From a virus, in IMG/VR virus record IMGVR_UViG_3300028844_006119, positions 1 through 64,000 of that record: a DNA stretch of 64,000 bases. One strand, given 5' to 3'. This document shows positions 1,259 to 9,105 of the stretch, piece after piece. The translations under genes and the position numbers were made by a program. The notes under the pieces were generated by a model, which saw only the letters and a program-made list of their open reading frames with translations, did not search any database and was not told the origin of the DNA. The number at the start of each line of letters is the position of its first letter. Position 1 is the first letter of the stretch.

Positions 1259-1681
1259 TTACTCCTCGACCTCGAAGCCGTCGACGAGAGTAGAAACCCA
1301 CTCCCAGTCGATATCCTCTACTCCGTGAAAGCCCATCACTCGCGACACTTTCGTCCGCTTGCGATAGTTACTGCCACCCGCGAGAGACTCGCGGTCGAAG
1401 TCCACCCGGTGATGCGAACAGATTTTCACCCAGACATCCATCCGGGCGAGAAACTTCTCGCATGACGAACGCCCGAGTCCGTCAAGAACTCTCCATTCAT
1501 CTGCAGGGGGGTATGCCTGTGCGACCAGGCAGAGAATACTGAAGGCCACGTCATTCCACTCCTCACGGATGTGGTCGACGCTGCATTCCAGCGTTGCTTC
1601 GATGAGCTCGTGCACCTCAGATATGAGGTACCCGGCCGTCATCGGAGCAGAAAGCATCCCCCGCAAGTCCTTCACTTGCAT
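1259..1681 (-). CDS. MazG-like all-alpha NTP pyrophosphohydrolase-like protein
   Basis: 140 aa. Residues about 20-50 carry an acidic helical pattern (SEVHELIEAT, then REEWNDVAF) that resembles the metal-binding EExxE...ExxD motif of MazG and related nucleotide pyrophosphohydrolases. Known members hydrolyse NTPs or dNTPs to monophosphates, and several phages encode them to clean nucleotide pools or blunt alarmone signalling. The second half, with a Cys/His-containing stretch (KICSHHRVD), has no match I recognise. A CATAAATA box overlaps the upstream gene's stop codon just before this start, which suggests independent expression. The assignment rests on the short motif only. Confidence 0.5.
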   Translation of the reverse strand: MQVKDLRGMLSAPMTAGYLISEVHELIEATLECSVDHIREEWNDVAFSILCLVAQAYPPADEWRVLDGLGRSSCEKFLARMDVWVKICSHHRVDFDRESLAGGSNYRKRTKVSRVMGFHGVEDIDWEWVSTLVDGFEVEE

Positions 1682-1690
1682 GGTTGATGT

Positions 1691-1712
1691 TCCATATACT
1701 ATTTATGCCTCG
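1691..1712 (-). promoter_or_regulatory. Promoter-like box overlapping the upstream stop codon
   Basis: The minus strand reads AGGCATAAATAGTATATGG. The TAA stop of the coiled-coil gene (1703-2362) is embedded in the CATAAATA core. The start of the MazG-like gene is only about 20 bases downstream, so the leader of that transcript would be very short. Confidence 0.6.
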
Positions 1713-2362
1713 GAACCGCCCCGATTTTCGGTAGCGTACTTGACGCCCATGATCGTGCCGATGATAGAGAAGCTGTTGGTGAGCAAGATACCGAACATGT
1801 TGCTCCAGGTATTGCCCAGGAGGGTTGTGTCTCCTGTGGACGCGGTAGGGCCGAACAGCGCAGTCGCGTACATCATGGTCGTCGTGATTCCCACACCGGC
1901 AATGACCCACAGGGCCACTCGGACGATGTTGCCCATGAGCTCAAACTGAGTCTGCTTCTGCATGAAGTCTAGGTCCGTCTCAGCGGTGGCTTTCGCCTTC
2001 TCCGCGAGGATCCGGGCCTCCTCTGCCTCCCGACGATGGGTATCGGACTGCTCTCGAGCGTCCTCCGCCTGCTCCTTTGCCTTTTTTGCTCTGTCCAACG
2101 CCGTCTGAAGCTGAGTCATCAATTCAGTATTCTTACTGTGCGCCCTCTCCAGCTCTTTCTTTTCCTCCTGGGCAGACTTGCTCACCTCTAGGCGCTGCTT
2201 CTGCTTTTCGGCATCTTTGGCCTGGGCTCTCTTTATGTACTCCTCGTACTCCGGGCGCCCCTCGTCGTCGATAAGCCGCAGGATGTTGCCGGAGATGTAG
2301 ACTTTCTTGCTTTGCGCAGTAGCGAGTAGCGCAGCCCAGGCAATTTCATCCAGCTGGATCAT
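1703..2362 (-). CDS. Coiled-coil protein with two membrane segments, third gene of the two-component operon
   Basis: 219 aa. Residues about 38-140 are a long, highly charged heptad-like coiled coil rich in Glu, Lys, Ala and Gln. They are followed by two hydrophobic segments at about 145-168 and 185-207 and a short polar tail. The start codon overlaps the stop of the response-regulator gene (ATGA), so it is translationally coupled to the signalling pair. By position it is a candidate effector or partner of the kinase and receiver, for example a membrane-anchored scaffold or pore-like protein that senses or transmits the signal. That role is inference from gene order. I recognise no family. Confidence 0.75.
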   Translation of the reverse strand: MIQLDEIAWAALLATAQSKKVYISGNILRLIDDEGRPEYEEYIKRAQAKDAEKQKQRLEVSKSAQEEKKELERAHSKNTELMTQLQTALDRAKKAKEQAEDAREQSDTHRREAEEARILAEKAKATAETDLDFMQKQTQFELMGNIVRVALWVIAGVGITTTMMYATALFGPTASTGDTTLLGNTWSNMFGILLTNSFSIIGTIMGVKYATENRGGSEA

Positions 2363-2790
2363 TGATAGACCCGGAACTCCGCCGTTCTGTCAGCGTATTT
2401 GGAGTAGTCCTCCCGGAACGCTTCTAGGCGAGGTTCGATCTCGTCACTTTTGACCAGCCAGAACTGGGCGCCGCAGTCTTTTGCTCGTTGAATCTCCAGA
2501 GTGTCCGAGGACGAGGAGATGATGCCGATGACAACACCATTGCCGTGGATCTGATTGATCCTGCGGACAAGCTCGATGCCGTCGTAGGTGCTGCCGATGA
2601 TGTTTAGATCCACGAAAACGCACTCTGGCCTATCGGTGGGATCGCTCTTCCATTCCGAGAATAGAGAGTCTGCTCGATCGGAGCTCTTTAGGGCCCGTAG
2701 GTCCAAGGCAATGCCTAGCAGAGAGCATGCGTCCTCAAAGACAAGATGAAAGAGGTCTTCATCATCTACAAGCAAAAGACTATTAATCAT
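2359..2790 (-). CDS. CheY-like single-domain response regulator
   Basis: 143 aa from the ATG at 2790. It has the receiver signature: acidic pair D9/D10 (LLLVDDED), phospho-acceptor D61 (VFVDLN), a Ser run at 92-95 in the Thr/Ser switch position, and K114 (WLVKSDE). There is no DNA-binding or enzymatic output domain, so it should act by protein contact, as CheY and Spo0F do. An upstream in-frame start at 2832 lies inside the kinase gene and is less likely. Its ATG overlaps the end of the kinase gene (ATGATTAA), and its stop overlaps the next start, making a tight three-gene operon. It is the presumed phosphotransfer partner of the adjacent kinase. Confidence 0.9.
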   Translation of the reverse strand: MINSLLLVDDEDLFHLVFEDACSLLGIALDLRALKSSDRADSLFSEWKSDPTDRPECVFVDLNIIGSTYDGIELVRRINQIHGNGVVIGIISSSSDTLEIQRAKDCGAQFWLVKSDEIEPRLEAFREDYSKYADRTAEFRVYQ

Positions 2791-4096
2791 GGGTCTGAAT
2801 CCGAATTCGAGTACCGACAGAGGCCTTCTCACAGGTGACGGAGAAGTCGTGCTCTCTTAGAATGGCTATGCAGATGTTTAGGCCTAGGCCGGAGCCTGCC
2901 TCGGTCTGCCCTTTTTTTCTAACGTAGGGCTTCGAGTATTCCTCGAACTCTTTTTTAGTCATTCCTCGACCGTTGTCGATGATGACAATGTGGTTGCCGT
3001 CCTCAGACTCTACTCTGACTACCTTTGTCTGGGAGTCGTTGTACTTTAGGCCATTTCGTATCAAGTTATCAATGGCTGTGCAAAACAGTGGACCATTTAC
3101 CTCCACCGCCGGAAGATCCCCAAGAACTACTTGGCTCTTGTAGGAGGTCGCAGAGAGATAGTCTCGCAGAAGATCTCCTAGGTCATGGACCTGCATCTCA
3201 AGCTCTGCCCCAGGCTTTACGAGGTTGGTGAACTCCTTCACGCCGCTGTAGACTTTTTGGGTGTGGGCGAGCCCCTCCTTTAGCAAGCGAAGAGGCATCT
3301 GCAGGTTCAGCTTTTCGACGATCTCGGGGCATGACATCAGACGTCTTTCCAGGGACCGAATGCCTCGAGGTATGTATGTATTGATGCCAGAGTGCATGTC
3401 GTGACGGAGGATCTTTGCGGCGTGCTCTAAGTATGTGTTTTTACTCTGCAGTTCCATTCTGTCTTGAATCTGCTCGGTGACGTCATTGGCTACTTTCAAG
3501 ATCTCAAATACCGCCCCATCCCTGGTCTTGAGAGGGATGTATGTCCCGGTGACCCACACAGACGTTCCGTCCGTCGCAACTCTCTCGTAGGTCCCTCTGT
3601 ATGGAAGGCCTTCCCTGAGCTTCTTCCAGAAGTATTTGTATGTGCGGCTGCCGCGTACCTGATCCTTTACGAAGGACGAGTGCTGCATGCCGGGCACGGT
3701 GTCCTTATCGATCTTCAACAGATCGCAGAAATATTGATTGGCCTCGATGATGGTCGCGTCCGGCTTGAGACGCACGACAATACTATTTGTGTTCACGGCC
3801 TCCATAAACAGCGCCACACTCTTCTGCTTGAAGTCCAGAACGGAGTAGAGGGCTGTCAGGTACGACACGGTACAGACCAAGTAGAGGGGGGCCATGGGAG
3901 CCCCCTCCAAGGTAGCCATTATTGGATCCATGCGGGACCCGGAGTACGCTCCGGGGTTTAGGTCATAGATCACGTCCAGGACCAGGTATGTGATCTGTAG
4001 CCCCAGCAATGTGGACGCTACGCCGGTCAGGTGCCTAAGGTTGCTCGGAAGCGACTTAAACTCCTTGGCCATTCTGACGACAAAGGATTTGTTCAT
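2783..4096 (-). CDS. Membrane PAS-domain sensor histidine kinase
   Basis: 437 aa from the ATG at 4096, which has GGAG seven bases upstream. Two membrane segments lie at about 25-44 and 67-87, then a PAS/PAC sensor at about 95-210, then a dimerisation helix with likely phospho-acceptor H232 (LRHDMHSG). The ATPase domain shows an N box (D343, N344, N348), G1 (DNGRGM at 374-379) and G2 (GSGLGL at 401-406). All residues needed for activity appear present. It would autophosphorylate at the inner membrane of the infected host and pass phosphate to the receiver encoded immediately downstream. A complete, membrane-anchored kinase paired with its own receiver is very unusual in a phage. The signal sensed cannot be read from sequence. 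Confidence 0.92.
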   Translation of the reverse strand: MNKSFVVRMAKEFKSLPSNLRHLTGVASTLLGLQITYLVLDVIYDLNPGAYSGSRMDPIMATLEGAPMAPLYLVCTVSYLTALYSVLDFKQKSVALFMEAVNTNSIVVRLKPDATIIEANQYFCDLLKIDKDTVPGMQHSSFVKDQVRGSRTYKYFWKKLREGLPYRGTYERVATDGTSVWVTGTYIPLKTRDGAVFEILKVANDVTEQIQDRMELQSKNTYLEHAAKILRHDMHSGINTYIPRGIRSLERRLMSCPEIVEKLNLQMPLRLLKEGLAHTQKVYSGVKEFTNLVKPGAELEMQVHDLGDLLRDYLSATSYKSQVVLGDLPAVEVNGPLFCTAIDNLIRNGLKYNDSQTKVVRVESEDGNHIVIIDNGRGMTKKEFEEYSKPYVRKKGQTEAGSGLGLNICIAILREHDFSVTCEKASVGTRIRIQTHD

Positions 4097-5528: not shown

Positions 5529-5560
5529 CAGTAGATTATTTATGCCTCTTTTTCTCCTTG
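5529..5560 (-). promoter_or_regulatory. T4-late-like promoter box (CATAAATA)
   Basis: The minus strand reads AAAAAGAGGCATAAATAATC, sharing 18 of its 20 bases with the copy at 1150-1180. It lies about 60-70 bases upstream of the start at 5470. Confidence 0.7.
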
Positions 5561-6244: not shown

Positions 6245-6272
6245 TCCTCTACTATATTTATGACCTAAAAAG
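6245..6272 (-). promoter_or_regulatory. T4-late-like promoter box (CATAAATA)
   Basis: The minus strand reads TTTTTAGGTCATAAATATAG. The core and the trailing TATAGTAG match the copy at 631-660. It drives the 36-aa and 67-aa genes. The divergent lipoprotein gene starts about 80 bases away on the other strand. Confidence 0.65.
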
Positions 6273-6723: not shown

Positions 6724-6799
6724 TGGTGGAGGATATCGGAATCGAACCGATGACATCCAGCTTGCAAAGCTGGCGCTCTCCCAACTGAGCTAATCCCCC
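6724..6799 (-). tRNA. tRNA-Ala (TGC)
   Basis: The cloverleaf folds fully: acceptor GGGGGAT/ATCCTCC, anticodon loop with TGC, and a GGTTCGATTCC T-arm. Discriminator A73 and the CCA end are encoded. Confidence 0.95.
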
Positions 6800-6800
6800 A

Positions 6801-6876
6801 TGGCTCCGGCAACAGGACTCGAACCTGTGACCCGCGGATTAACAGTCCGCTGCTCTACCAACTGAGCTATACCGGA
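6801..6876 (-). tRNA. tRNA-Asn (GTT)
   Basis: Acceptor TCCGGTA/TGCCGGA, anticodon loop CTGTTAA, T-arm GGTTCGAGTCC. The CCA end is encoded. It lies one base from the Ala tRNA. Confidence 0.95.
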
Positions 6877-6888
6877 ACATTCCTATTG

Positions 6889-6962
6889 TGGCTGGGGCAC
6901 CAGGGATCGAACCTGAGACGTCGGCGCCAAAAACCGAAGTGATACCGCTTCACCATACCCCA
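6889..6962 (-). tRNA. tRNA-Gln (TTG)
   Basis: Acceptor TGGGGTA/TGCCCCA, anticodon stem TCGGT/GCCGA with loop TTTTGGC giving anticodon TTG, and an encoded CCA. The upstream protein gene's stop codon abuts the tRNA's 5' end. Confidence 0.92.
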
Positions 6963-7157
6963 TTACTCCGGTTGAAGATCTGCCTCGTCGGTCCAGAAGG
7001 ACTCATATTCATAGGGGGACTTATCCTCCGGAAATGCCCCAAGCTCCGGGCTGTCCCACTTGACGAGAACAATAGTAGAGCCCTTTCCTTCTTCTCGCTG
7101 CATAGCCGTCCCCGTACCATAAGCATGGTGGGATACTCGCGTGCCTGGTTTGATCAT
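6963..7157 (-). CDS. SH3-like/CarD-like small protein within the tRNA array, 64 aa
   Basis: The N-terminus (MIKPGTRVSHHAYGTGTAM) followed by a strand-rich middle (STIVLVKWDSPE) resembles the small SH3-like folds with a G-x-x-V-x-H-x-x-YG-x-G signature seen in the CarD/TRCF interaction domain and in UvrD-type C-terminal tudor domains. Those domains contact RNA polymerase or nucleic acid. The acidic C-terminus is unremarkable. The gene sits between the Gln and Ser tRNA genes, directly against the former, so it is presumably co-transcribed with the tRNAs. A role in steering host transcription is possible, but the assignment rests only on the signature. Confidence 0.6.
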   Translation of the reverse strand: MIKPGTRVSHHAYGTGTAMQREEGKGSTIVLVKWDSPELGAFPEDKSPYEYESFWTDEADLQPE

Positions 7158-7181
7158 TGGGTCTCCAAAGAAGAGGTAAGG

Positions 7182-7269
7182 TGGCGGAGAGAGTGGGATT
7201 CGAACCCACGGTAGGTTGCCCTACACTCGCGTTCCAGGCGAGCACCTTCGTCCACTCGGTCATCTCTCC
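7182..7269 (-). tRNA. tRNA-Ser (GGA)
   Basis: Class II tRNA with a long variable arm. Acceptor GGAGAGA/TCTCTCC, anticodon stem CTCGC/GCGAG with loop CTGGAAC, encoded G73 and CCA. Confidence 0.95.
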
Positions 7270-7274
7270 TAAAA

Positions 7275-7359
7275 TGGTGCGAGAAGGGGGAATCGAACCC
7301 CCACTCCTTAAGGAACCAGATCCTAAATCTGGCGCGTCTACCAATTCCGCCACCCTCGC
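7275..7359 (-). tRNA. tRNA-Leu (TAG)
   Basis: Class II tRNA. Acceptor GCGAGGG/TTCTCGC, anticodon stem CCAGA/TCTGG with loop TTTAGGA giving anticodon TAG, long variable arm, encoded CCA. Confidence 0.95.
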
Positions 7360-7584
7360 TTAAGTGTCCCGAGTCTCACGAGCCTAAGGTTTATACTGAC
7401 ATCGGCTTCTACCTCTAAAGGTCCGTGTCGCCCTCAGATTTGTCCTGCCTGAGGTGCAGGGGCGACATAGGGGCCGCCAAGAAAAAGGGGGGCTGGGGAG
7501 ACCGTCCCGGGACGGTCTGGGTCCGGTCTCTTTTCCTTACGCATAAAAGGAGGTACGTAAGAAGGGCAGCCCAGCTCTGCCGAA
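7360..7584. other. Non-coding stretch in the tRNA array with two RNA-hairpin candidates
   Basis: No convincing gene is visible here. Positions 7426-7467 can fold into a hairpin (outer TGTCGCCC/GGGCGACA, inner CTCAG/CTGAG). Positions 7500-7517 are a perfect 18-base palindrome, GACCGTCCCGGGACGGTC, which forms a 7-base stem. On the minus strand CCCCCCTTTTTC follows about 15 bases further on. Either may be a terminator, a processing signal for the tRNA transcript or a small structured RNA. Confidence 0.4.
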
Positions 7585-7731
7585 TTATTCCTTCGGGCTC
7601 TCGGAATCCCCTGAGCACTTCTTACACCGAGTCTCCCCGTCTTTTAACTCTTCTCTGCTCCCGCAGGGACATTGGCGTACCTCCTTAGCAAGGCCTAGCG
7701 CCTCAATCAATGCGAACTTCATTTGGTCCAT
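7585..7731 (-). CDS. Small zinc-ribbon protein, 48 aa
   Basis: This small gene lies between two Leu tRNA genes. The ATG at 7731 follows GAGGGACCG, a reasonable ribosome-binding site. A short helix (MDQMKFALIEALGLAKEV) is followed by a zinc knuckle: CPC at residues 21-23 and CKKC at 36-39. The paired CxC/CxxC cysteines about 15 residues apart are what a single zinc ribbon needs. It is one of several such mini zinc proteins in this phage. The partner is unknown. The ATG of Met4 is an alternative start. Confidence 0.65.
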   Translation of the reverse strand: MDQMKFALIEALGLAKEVRQCPCGSREELKDGETRCKKCSGDSESPKE

Positions 7732-7750
7732 CGGTCCCTCGAAAGTGTAA

Positions 7751-7837
7751 TGGTGCCCCGAGTGGGAATCGAACCCACACGCCTGTACAGGCCAGGGATT
7801 TTAAGTCCCGTGCGTCTACCGATTCCGCCATCAGGGC
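7751..7837 (-). tRNA. tRNA-Leu (TAA)
   Basis: Class II tRNA. Acceptor GCCCTGA/TCGGGGC, anticodon loop CTTAAAA, long variable arm, encoded A73 and CCA. The outermost anticodon-stem pair is a C-U mismatch. Confidence 0.93.
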
Positions 7838-7841
7838 GCAG

Positions 7842-8372
7842 CTATGATGCCCTTTTAGCAGAAAGAGCTTCCTTTTTGCGGAGCTTATCCCTGCGGTGAG
7901 CCACACGAACTCCGCATTTACGGGAGCAGTACATGGATTTCTCGCGACCTCTTCCCTCGCAGGGAGGCCAGGCGCAGGATGGGAGGTCCCCTTCCTCCTG
8001 AGGCCCCGCCCAGATGAGACGCAGGTCGGGGTCTTCATCTCCAACTCGATAAGGGAATCCTGGGATCTCGGAAGGCATGAGACGGAGCATGCGCTGCTTC
8101 TCTCGGTATCTCCTATCCCGCTCTCTCTTCTTCTTTCGGGCTTCCGCCTCTTTCCGATCTTCTGCCTCCTGGAGAAGGCGAGCGGACTCAGCTTTTTCAG
8201 CTTTTTCGAAGTTTGAAGAGTACTGGAGGACATATGTCTGAACCTGAGGTTCTCCGTAGAGTCTCCAGCCACAGACATAGCATCCTAGATACACCTCGTC
8301 TCGCCAGTTCATTTTGGTGGACTGGAGATAGACGTGGTGAGATCCACATTTTTGGCAGGGGGGCTTGCGCAT
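7842..8372 (-). CDS. Protein with two zinc-finger-like ends and a charged helix, 176 aa
   Basis: From the ATG at 8372 (GGGAG nine bases upstream) the N-terminus holds a zinc ribbon (CQKCGSHH near residues 6-13, then CYVCGW about 20 residues later). A long Lys/Glu/Arg helix spans about 60-105. The C-terminal part has a second Cys cluster (CAWPPCEG, then MYCSRKCGVRVAHRR) that looks like a treble-clef or HNH-associated zinc finger, but no HNH catalytic pair is visible. Both zinc sites suggest nucleic-acid binding. It lies between the Leu and Ile tRNA genes on the same strand. Family not recognised. Confidence 0.7.
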   Translation of the reverse strand: MRKPPCQKCGSHHVYLQSTKMNWRDEVYLGCYVCGWRLYGEPQVQTYVLQYSSNFEKAEKAESARLLQEAEDRKEAEARKKKRERDRRYREKQRMLRLMPSEIPGFPYRVGDEDPDLRLIWAGPQEEGDLPSCAWPPCEGRGREKSMYCSRKCGVRVAHRRDKLRKKEALSAKRAS

Positions 8373-8458
8373 CGTCGTGTCTCCCAAAGTTATGTACGTT
8401 GGGTTTCTGAGGCAGGGGAGAGGGAGAGAGGCTCCAGCCTCTCTCCCTACTCCCGACT

Positions 8459-8644
8459 CTACTTCTCGAGATTAATGCTGGCCTTGCGGAGCGCCTTGAG
8501 GCGCTTCTCTAGGGCCAGGGTCGTCTTTCGAAGGTTCCGATTGGCGGTCTTCCAGCCGTATTCGCGAGCGTCGATCTTTTCGCAGTCGTCTTCGTGTTCT
8601 GCCAGCATCTCAATAAGTGCGGCGAGTTCGTCTAGTAGGCTCAT
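8459..8644 (-). CDS. Small coiled-coil protein, 61 aa
   Basis: The ATG at 8644 has AGAGGAAC upstream. The product (starting MSLLDELAALIEMLAEHEDD) is a charged amphipathic helix with leucines at heptad spacing and a basic second half. A CATAAAAA sequence about 20 bases before the start is a weak relative of the recurring promoter box. It lies between tRNA-Ile and the two-zinc-finger gene. No family is recognised. Confidence 0.6.
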   Translation of the reverse strand: MSLLDELAALIEMLAEHEDDCEKIDAREYGWKTANRNLRKTTLALEKRLKALRKASINLEK

Positions 8645-8667
8645 TTGTTCCTCTGTGTTTTTATGGG

Positions 8668-8741
8668 TAGGTCTGCTCGGAGTTGAACCGAGGCACTCTC
8701 GCATATAAGACGAGCGCTCTAACCGACTGAGCTACAGACCC
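8668..8741 (-). tRNA. tRNA-Ile (TAT)
   Basis: Acceptor GGGTCTG/CAGACCT with a terminal G-U pair. Anticodon stem CTCGT/GCGAG with loop CTTATAT gives anticodon TAT, which reads AUA. The 3' end is ACCC, so CCA is not encoded, unlike in the other tRNAs here. Confidence 0.9.
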
Positions 8742-8974
8742 AGATGGCATTCTTGGGTGTCCCCTGCATCATTTCGTACGCACTGCCCCAATTCCTCCGC
8801 AACCCTCAGGTAGTGCTGGTAGTTCGTAAAGAATCGGGGGTCCTTATTGGTCTGAGACAGGCGGTACCACCTTATCGCGATCCCGACGTAGTCGGGCTCC
8901 GCTACTAAGGTCTTCTTCAGTCTGGTTATGCCCAGGTTTCCCTCCTCTTTTACGGAGGTAGTTGGCCCTCTCAT
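8732..8974 (-). CDS. Small hypothetical protein ending inside a tRNA gene, 80 aa
   Basis: A reading frame with protein-like composition (for example EPDYVGIAIRWYRLSQTN and NYQHYLRVAEELGQC). Its TAG stop lies in the D-arm of the downstream tRNA-Ile, giving a 10-base overlap between gene and tRNA. GGAG precedes the start by about 12 bases, which is a weak signal. Processing of the tRNA would destroy the mRNA's 3' end, which could act as a crude regulatory link. It could also be a spurious frame. Confidence 0.5.
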   Translation of the reverse strand: MRGPTTSVKEEGNLGITRLKKTLVAEPDYVGIAIRWYRLSQTNKDPRFFTNYQHYLRVAEELGQCVRNDAGDTQECHLGL

Positions 8975-9028
8975 CGTTCAATCTCCGGAGGGTTGGTAGA
9001 TCCCACATCTCAGTGTCCTCAAGTAAGG

Positions 9029-9105
9029 TGGTACCCCGACCTGGACTCGAACCAGGGACCCTCGGCTTAGAAGGCCGATGCTCTATCCAGCTGAGCTACC
9101 GGGGC
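9029..9105 (-). tRNA. tRNA-Arg (TCT)
   Basis: Acceptor GCCCCGG/TCGGGGT, anticodon stem TCGGC/GCCGA with loop CTTCTAA, T-arm GGTTCGAGTCC. CCA is encoded. It reads AGA, a rare codon in many GC-rich hosts. Confidence 0.94.

Follow-up and report, generated by a model that had tools for sequence, protein, structure and literature searches.

Two-component systems and lone receivers are already known, as is a histidine kinase that a phage encodes next to curli genes (PMC9599517), and three described systems are among the closest to the one analysed below. The CheY-like protein PorX of Bacteroidota type IX secretion binds PorL, a membrane subunit of the core complex (PMC5005315), the cellular two-component system LytST regulates expression of lrgAB (PMC3507848), and a Pelagiphage histidine kinase belongs to curli secretion clusters (PMC9599517). 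For the present analysis, a 64,000-nucleotide stretch of DNA (the window), the first 64 kb of the 142,186-base tailed-phage record IMGVR_UViG_3300028844_006119, was examined around a minus-strand operon encoding a sensor histidine kinase (HK), a single-domain receiver (RR) and a coiled-coil membrane protein (CC).

By mode of output, the sole basis of this comparison, the operon would resemble PorX-PorL in that the receiver binds a membrane protein instead of DNA, and an RR acting on a membrane protein therefore has a precedent (PMC5005315). LytST is alike as a two-component system governing holin-like proteins, but it is cellular and acts on gene expression, whereas here a lone RR without a DNA-binding domain is found in phages (PMC3507848). 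The Pelagiphage kinase is likewise phage-encoded but tied to curli genes, and its description, on which this comparison is based, holds no trio with a receiver and CC in the excerpt considered (PMC9599517). In the literature searched, with preprints and subscription journals mostly outside its coverage, no phage HK-RR-membrane operon was described, nor did it yield a widespread trio of kinase, receiver and membrane protein that is restricted to viruses and includes a new membrane protein family. We read HK-RR-CC, at a probability of about 0.5, as a self-contained, virus-specific phosphorelay that acts via CC at the membrane and probably sets lysis timing. The operon is laid out as follows.

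2783-4096, minus strand: HK, sensor histidine kinase, 437 amino acids (aa) counted from ATG (455 if counted from GTG); transmembrane (TM) segments at aa 25-43 and 69-87, PAS at aa ~104-208, dimerization and histidine phosphotransfer (DHp) region with H232, HATPase at aa 340-434
2359-2790, minus strand: RR, single-domain receiver of CheY fold, 143 aa counted from ATG (157 if counted from GTG)
1703-2362, minus strand: CC protein, 219 aa, helical, with a C-terminal two-TM hairpin

HK and RR overlap by 8 nt, and RR and CC by 4 nt (ATGA), which confirms the close stop/start coupling proposed in the initial annotation; together with the open reading frames (ORFs) and domain matches, these overlaps bear out its claim of a complete two-component operon of three overlapping genes in a phage. 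In a Pfam scan, HK matched HATPase_c (E 8.8e-14) and PAS_9 (E 1.4e-8), and RR matched Response_reg (E 2.1e-7) as the sole domain in its 143 aa, with no output domain. Those catalytic residues that the initial annotation named are at the positions it gave, and the full set is intact: H232, N348, the G1 residues D374/G376/G378 and the G2 residues G401/G403/G405 were invariant across 63 distinct HKs, and D9, D10, D61, S92/S93 and K114 across 52 distinct RRs, the window's own copies being counted in both sets. Genes disrupted in sister phages, which would have told against a working system, were not seen, as sister loci retain both the genes and the catalytic residues.

HK shares with sensor kinases of the HATPase_c class the H, N, G1 and G2 boxes, the PAS/GAF modules and the TM hairpin, but differs in its almost invariant DHp helix, in being nearly virus-restricted in the collections searched, and in that the window HK matched no HisKA (DHp) family of Pfam at E up to 1, though its H box is clear within a conserved stretch. 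The structure prediction of RR (predicted local distance difference test score, pLDDT, 94.6) gave a clear CheY fold, its best fold matches including the phytochrome-associated single-domain regulators 6xvu, 4zyl and Rcp1 (1i3c), with profile matches to 3ilh and 4zyl. RR thus has the CheY fold, acidic pocket, D61, K114, short C-terminal strand and missing output domain of known single-domain response regulators, but shows 13-26% identity among the 50 fold matches listed, and is partnered by a viral HK and CC.

Conservation was analysed along the proteins as entropy, giving 0.13 bits for receiver helix 1, 0.07 for receiver beta 3, 0.24 for DHp helix 1, 1.45 for PAS and 1.82 for the TM region. 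In two-component systems, kinase and receiver usually touch through DHp helix 1 and receiver helix 1, and the low entropy of these helices therefore suggests a cognate, insulated pair; judged from these sequences, HK and RR very probably form a cognate phosphorelay. The same residues could also serve host rewiring, in which HK phosphorylates host response regulators or RR drains phosphate from host kinases: both proteins hold all catalytic residues, and a receiver lacking an output domain is what a phosphate sink is expected to be. This is improbable, however, since the interface regions are conserved across lineages of differing GC, cellular kinases are weakly similar to HK (best 1.1e-11 in 118 Bacteroidota genomes, against 1.1e-78 for a viral-type copy on a metagenome-assembled genome (MAG) contig), the loci examined virtually always have the full trio, and CC would be left unexplained. 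The earlier suggestion of cross-phosphorylation of host pathways is accordingly disfavoured by the conserved interface and the weak similarity of cellular kinases.

The completeness of the trio was assessed by scanning IMG/VR with HK, CC and RR as queries, keeping the best 80 loci per query, the three sets overlapping. These scans returned at least 586 relatives among 597 matched stretches for HK, at least 569 among 599 for CC and at least 556 among 596 for RR. With HK as query, RR was present in 79/80 loci and CC in 77/80; the one locus lacking RR ends 35 nt past HK, and in the other two that lack CC 75 and 379 nt remain beyond RR. The CC query gave RR in all 75 new loci, counting a re-read masked copy in L085, and HK in 71 of them, the four others starting inside RR or at most ~250 nt upstream of it. 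Of the 80 RR-query loci, 76 were new and 13 of these had no room for the partners; both partners were found in 62 of the 63 with room, the exception (L210, 622 nt downstream) lacking CC. Gene order (HK-RR-CC) and strand were constant in HK-query loci holding the trio, and nearly every trio gene was on the strand of RR in 158 clustered loci. Among loci whose RR start matched a motif, which were those measured, the HK-RR junction is an overlap or a gap of 0-20 nt in 110/124, and the RR-CC junction in 92/122.

Lineages were defined at 85% identity of the HK catalytic part, producing 42, two of which are the MAG contigs L082 and L083, so that the trio is present in ~40 diverged viral lineages. Across the 42, the distances of HK, RR and CC correlate (Mantel r 0.67, 0.44 and 0.61). 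Since some pairs of locus ids refer to a single public contig (for example L025/L099, L002/L189, L064/L091), loci are not independent and lineages are the better unit; genes were called by a greedy longest-ORF procedure rather than a trained gene finder. Besides the trio, the window phage has four ORFs matching any other locus: a SNase, a zinc-ribbon protein and an unassigned protein, all encoded at 17.2-19.6 kb, and a fourth ORF at 73.7-75.1 kb; the trio therefore seems to have spread as a unit among unlike phages.

Such an operon had been thought rare in phages; this does not hold for uncultured phages, where it is common (at least 556 relatives per query), its absence being confined to named ones. 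Among 50,697 named phages, RR and CC had no match (E 0.01 and 0.1), nor did a second RR tried, and HK matched a single unannotated 8.2 kb record, and that weakly; CC was also absent from the plasmids searched. In cells, an RR profile scan of 84,980 bacterial and archaeal genomes found two loci, both on MAG contigs (L082, L083); the scan relied on exact peptide patterns, and distant cellular relatives could therefore be missed. Of 198 Bacteroidota genomes, 197 lacked CC, and the remaining one is among the same two MAGs. On one of these contigs CC is 349 aa long, and the candidate origins of both loci are a prophage, a binned phage contig or a host gene.

These counts bear on whether the operon is ordinary cargo, a moron or auxiliary gene set recently acquired from a host two-component system. 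Bacteria are rich in such genes, and the Pelagiphage HK sits beside curli genes with partner genes thought to be cell-derived (PMC9599517). Against this stand the two MAG loci alone in the cellular scan, the single Bacteroidota genome with CC, the ~40 viral lineages, and codon usage that fits the phage, the operon correlating at 0.955 with eight large ORFs of the presumed structural (late) region, compared with 0.10 for the homologous HK of L019; recent cargo is thus highly improbable. The record itself is a large tailed phage, as indicated by terminase (4.7e-60), DNA polymerase (6e-111), primase, DnaB helicase, UvsX and topoisomerase II among 37 proteins scanned. On this gene content and the codon usage, a chimera or host-chromosome origin of the operon was rejected, and the codon usage answers the concern, raised at the outset, that the segment might be an assembly chimera with bacterial DNA. 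A second HATPase in the record (134,882-135,205) was considered and rejected as a kinase; it is read as a gyrase B/ParE-like topoisomerase, topoisomerase II being the strongest PHROG in the tally.

CC has hydrophobic segments at aa ~142-171 and 189-207, and its predicted structure (pLDDT 86, predicted template modelling score 0.39) consists of a short N-terminal part, one ~134-residue helix (aa 37-170) running into TM1, and a TM2 helix (aa 179-214). TM2 (WSNMFGILLTNAFSIVGTIMGVKYA in the consensus) is nearly invariant. No Pfam family was matched, neither Pfam nor PHROGs gave a holin match, and neither the viral nor the PDB library contained a structure matching the model at E<=0.001, so CC appears to be a new protein family, in keeping with the initial annotation of a novel protein with two membrane segments. 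PADLOC models gave no convincing match, and none at all for two HKs and two RRs; a weak LeoBC match covered the helical part in two of three CCs tested (E 9.3e-4 and 2.2e-3).

The lack of a DNA-binding domain in RR implies that its output is a protein contact, and from the gene arrangement CC is the likely recipient. CC had been put forward as a possible effector: the linkage supports its membership of the operon and a part as effector, though its role is inferred. It might instead lie upstream, as a membrane sensor or scaffold resembling an inverted chemoreceptor that controls HK, with RR acting on another phage or host protein. The long helix ending in a membrane hairpin, and the pairing of variable HK sensor parts with a conserved CC hairpin, are in keeping with such an arrangement, but HK has sensor domains of its own, which differ between lineages while CC stays, and we regard it as quite unlikely.

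The input side of HK is variable across the family, and DHp, RR and the CC hairpin vary little. Input forms comprise two TM segments followed directly by DHp without PAS in kinases of ~300 aa (L128, L110, L156, L157, L154, L143), TM-PAS as in the window, PAS-PAS, GAF-PAS and GAF-PAS-PAS; the MAG contig L082 carries a triple-PAS HK. The ~300-aa members are like intramembrane-sensing kinases in having two TM segments and no PAS. For the window PAS, the nearest solved structure is 3ewk (E 7.8e-8), which we take to be a flavin-binding PAS of MmoS. Seven loci (L037, L039, L041, L043, L081, L122, L152) have a signal-peptide protein and a second kinase between HK and RR; these two-kinase operons span 9131-13064 in L037 and 304-3514 in L081, with the same arrangement in L122 and L152, and in L081 a homing-endonuclease-like gene lies between the second kinase and RR. 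In 27 loci, a ~165-aa membrane protein is encoded between RR and CC.

Four viral contigs (G001, G021, G022, G023) of 38 viral records searched carry a further insertion, a microbial rhodopsin of ~192 aa between the 165-aa membrane protein and CC, amounting to three distinct proteins. The gene was located in operons of uncultured phage contigs at the following positions.

12039-12617 of L002: rhodopsin gene in the operon
12074-12652 of L038: rhodopsin gene in the operon
7547-8122 of L025: rhodopsin gene in the operon
6529-7104 of L032: rhodopsin gene in the operon

The retinal-pocket motifs are kept (RY-DW-T-P, WMFYP and, in the last helix, D-A-K). Among solved structures, proteorhodopsins are the closest relatives, with the viral rhodopsin OLPVRII next. 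Gln takes the place of the proteorhodopsin proton-donor Glu, and such a substitution would suit a slow, sensor-like photocycle. G001, a 297 kb carrier, also encodes a major capsid protein of T4 type (2.3e-62). The literature searched, within the same coverage as above, yielded no account of a tailed-phage rhodopsin. The variant points to light as a signal that a phage could receive.

Neighbouring genes were analysed by clustering across 158 loci, including the window stretch and the two MAG contigs. Each trio member occurred in 154-156 loci, and the next commonest clusters were a holin-family protein (58), a 66-aa TM protein (50) and a peptidoglycan-binding amidase (37). Counted by lineage within 4 kb, lysis families lead the neighbour list, which has holin in 13, an 83-aa two-TM protein in 11, GH19 endolysin in 10, the 66-aa TM protein in 9, a multi-TM 358-aa protein, another two-TM protein and an endolysin-like protein in 8 each, and amidase in 7. 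The holin matched PF05105 above the cut-off in L073 and L158 and just below it in L117, and the endolysins near the operon were identified as Amidase_2, GH19 and M15_3. At least one of five lysis clusters lies within 4 kb in 24/42 lineages and 90/150 loci, 150 of the 154 loci with HK in the gene calls (L001 included) being in a lineage. Where at least 4 kb was available on both sides, one of four lysis clusters was present in 28/54 loci and 13/21 lineages, and 36 of 43 such genes were on the strand of the operon. Cluster 16 is endolysin-like by phrog_33083 alone (E 2.3e-15), its other match being phrog_3000 of unknown function, and cluster 36, with an M15_3 domain, joined the lysis set after the lineage ranking. 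In L269, one strand carries in order a TM protein, a lipoprotein, HK, RR, CC, a TM protein and a GH19 endolysin.

As the lysis families were picked from the neighbours, these lineage counts are descriptive. A distance test on whole records is less subject to that choice, though Amidase_2 and GH19 were themselves suggested by neighbours. From 20 records, six without Amidase_2 or GH19 were removed, near-duplicates (G005, G006, G014) were set aside by their like matches, and positions in the remaining 11 were read by hand. The distance from HK to Amidase_2 or GH19 is at most 7 kb in 5/11 (1.33 expected, P 0.006) and at most 4 kb in 4/11 (0.82 expected). The major capsid gene, used as a control in the 8 of these 11 records with a Gp23 match (partial or fragmentary in G004 and G007), was within 7 kb in 0/8. 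Phage_holin_4_1 was found in two of 23 long records, adjacent to the operon in G008; the M15_3 peptidase was found in none of the 23, and cluster 36 adjoins the operon in other contigs such as L100. Because the operon is so often beside holins and endolysins, lysis timing is its likeliest job, which on this genomic context we hold at slightly under even odds. On whether CC might itself be a two-TM holin, the observations are a predicted TM hairpin, lysis genes near the operon in part of the lineages, and none beside the window operon.

Several observations weigh against a role in lysis. CC matched no holin family and is larger than typical holins; no lysis family lies within 4 kb in 18/42 lineages, many contigs being short; in 6/11 whole records (G001, G004, G007, G010, G012, and G015 if that record is linear) the lysis matches are tens of kb away; and Phage_holin_4_1 of G010 is ~135 kb off. 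In the window phage, searches of the whole record for Amidase_2, GH19, M15_3 and Phage_holin_4_1 were empty, and the operon has no recognisable lysis gene beside it; two loci close to it in operon sequence, L267 and L268, likewise have none of the lysis clusters nearby. With four shared ORFs besides the trio, the lysis context is not transferable to the window by synteny. Enrichment of lipoproteins (o-spanin-like) nearby was rejected (3/534 vs 2/638, P 0.66), despite the L269 cassette. The same facts, namely a membrane protein without a holin match, the six records with the operon off their lysis matches and the window phage with none nearby, would fit a module that controls some other membrane matter (superinfection exclusion, a host transporter or a membrane-potential defence) with CC as effector, the lysis genes being neighbours as fellow late cell-envelope genes. 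The enrichment of lysis genes above chance in whole records and their lead in the lineage ranking argue against it, and we consider it unlikely. Lysis control by the HK-RR-CC phosphorelay is the best single explanation, offered as such rather than as a demonstration.

The observations from which a mechanism is drawn are the gene content, the intact catalytic residues, the near-universal linkage of the trio in the loci examined, its conservation pattern, its restriction to viruses in the collections searched and the enrichment of lysis genes. From them we infer phosphotransfer, contact between RR and CC, the topology of CC and the role in lysis. HK would read a condition of the infected cell via its membrane hairpin and/or exchangeable PAS/GAF sensors, autophosphorylate on H232 and hand the phosphate to D61 of its own RR. 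Phosphorylated RR would then contact the long helix of CC and alter its membrane assembly, which may advance or delay holin triggering according to cell state. The steps up to phosphotransfer are proposed from sequence, and those from phosphorylated RR onward from linkage and context.

The surroundings of the operon in the window hold the following further features.

5537-5546, minus strand: promoter-like GGCATAAATA element, lying upstream of a group of leftward genes ahead of the operon
1700-1709, minus strand: the same promoter-like element, within the 3' end of CC and ahead of the next leftward gene (1259-1681)
1259-1681, minus strand: neighbour gene, weakly matching MazG (E 2.2e-4, just below the cut-off)

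The element at 5537-5546 is a possible source of the operon transcript. All five copies of the promoter-like CATAAATA in the 142 kb record lie on the minus strand within 6 kb around the operon (643-652, 1157-1166, 1700-1709, 5537-5546 and 6255-6264), three of them 27-54 nt ahead of called starts. The gene at 1259-1681 was found in 0/80 HK-query loci and is outside the conserved module. Eight tRNA genes are located near the operon region (window 6724-9105, minus strand), and the first 25 kb of the record had no close relative among the 50,697 named phage records, the sole matches being four of 55-70 bases that fall on a tRNA gene. In L162 (365-3415, own phage), neighbouring genes resemble a VWA-type protein and an AAA ATPase, a pair that we take to be CobT/CobS-like; a 'porphyrin biosynthesis' PHROG is in the tally, its member not named.

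The size of the burst depends on when the host is lysed. That moment is commonly portrayed as a fixed clock governed by the amount of holin, and to our knowledge few inputs to it are known. As a tentative extension, many tailed phages may carry an unrecognised, dedicated phosphorelay that links cell state to the time of lysis through CC, with exchangeable inputs that in some would include light through a rhodopsin. The result would be far more surprising if lysis control and light input both hold. If true, phages commonly run regulated signalling of their own during infection, and environmental control of lysis would be directly testable.

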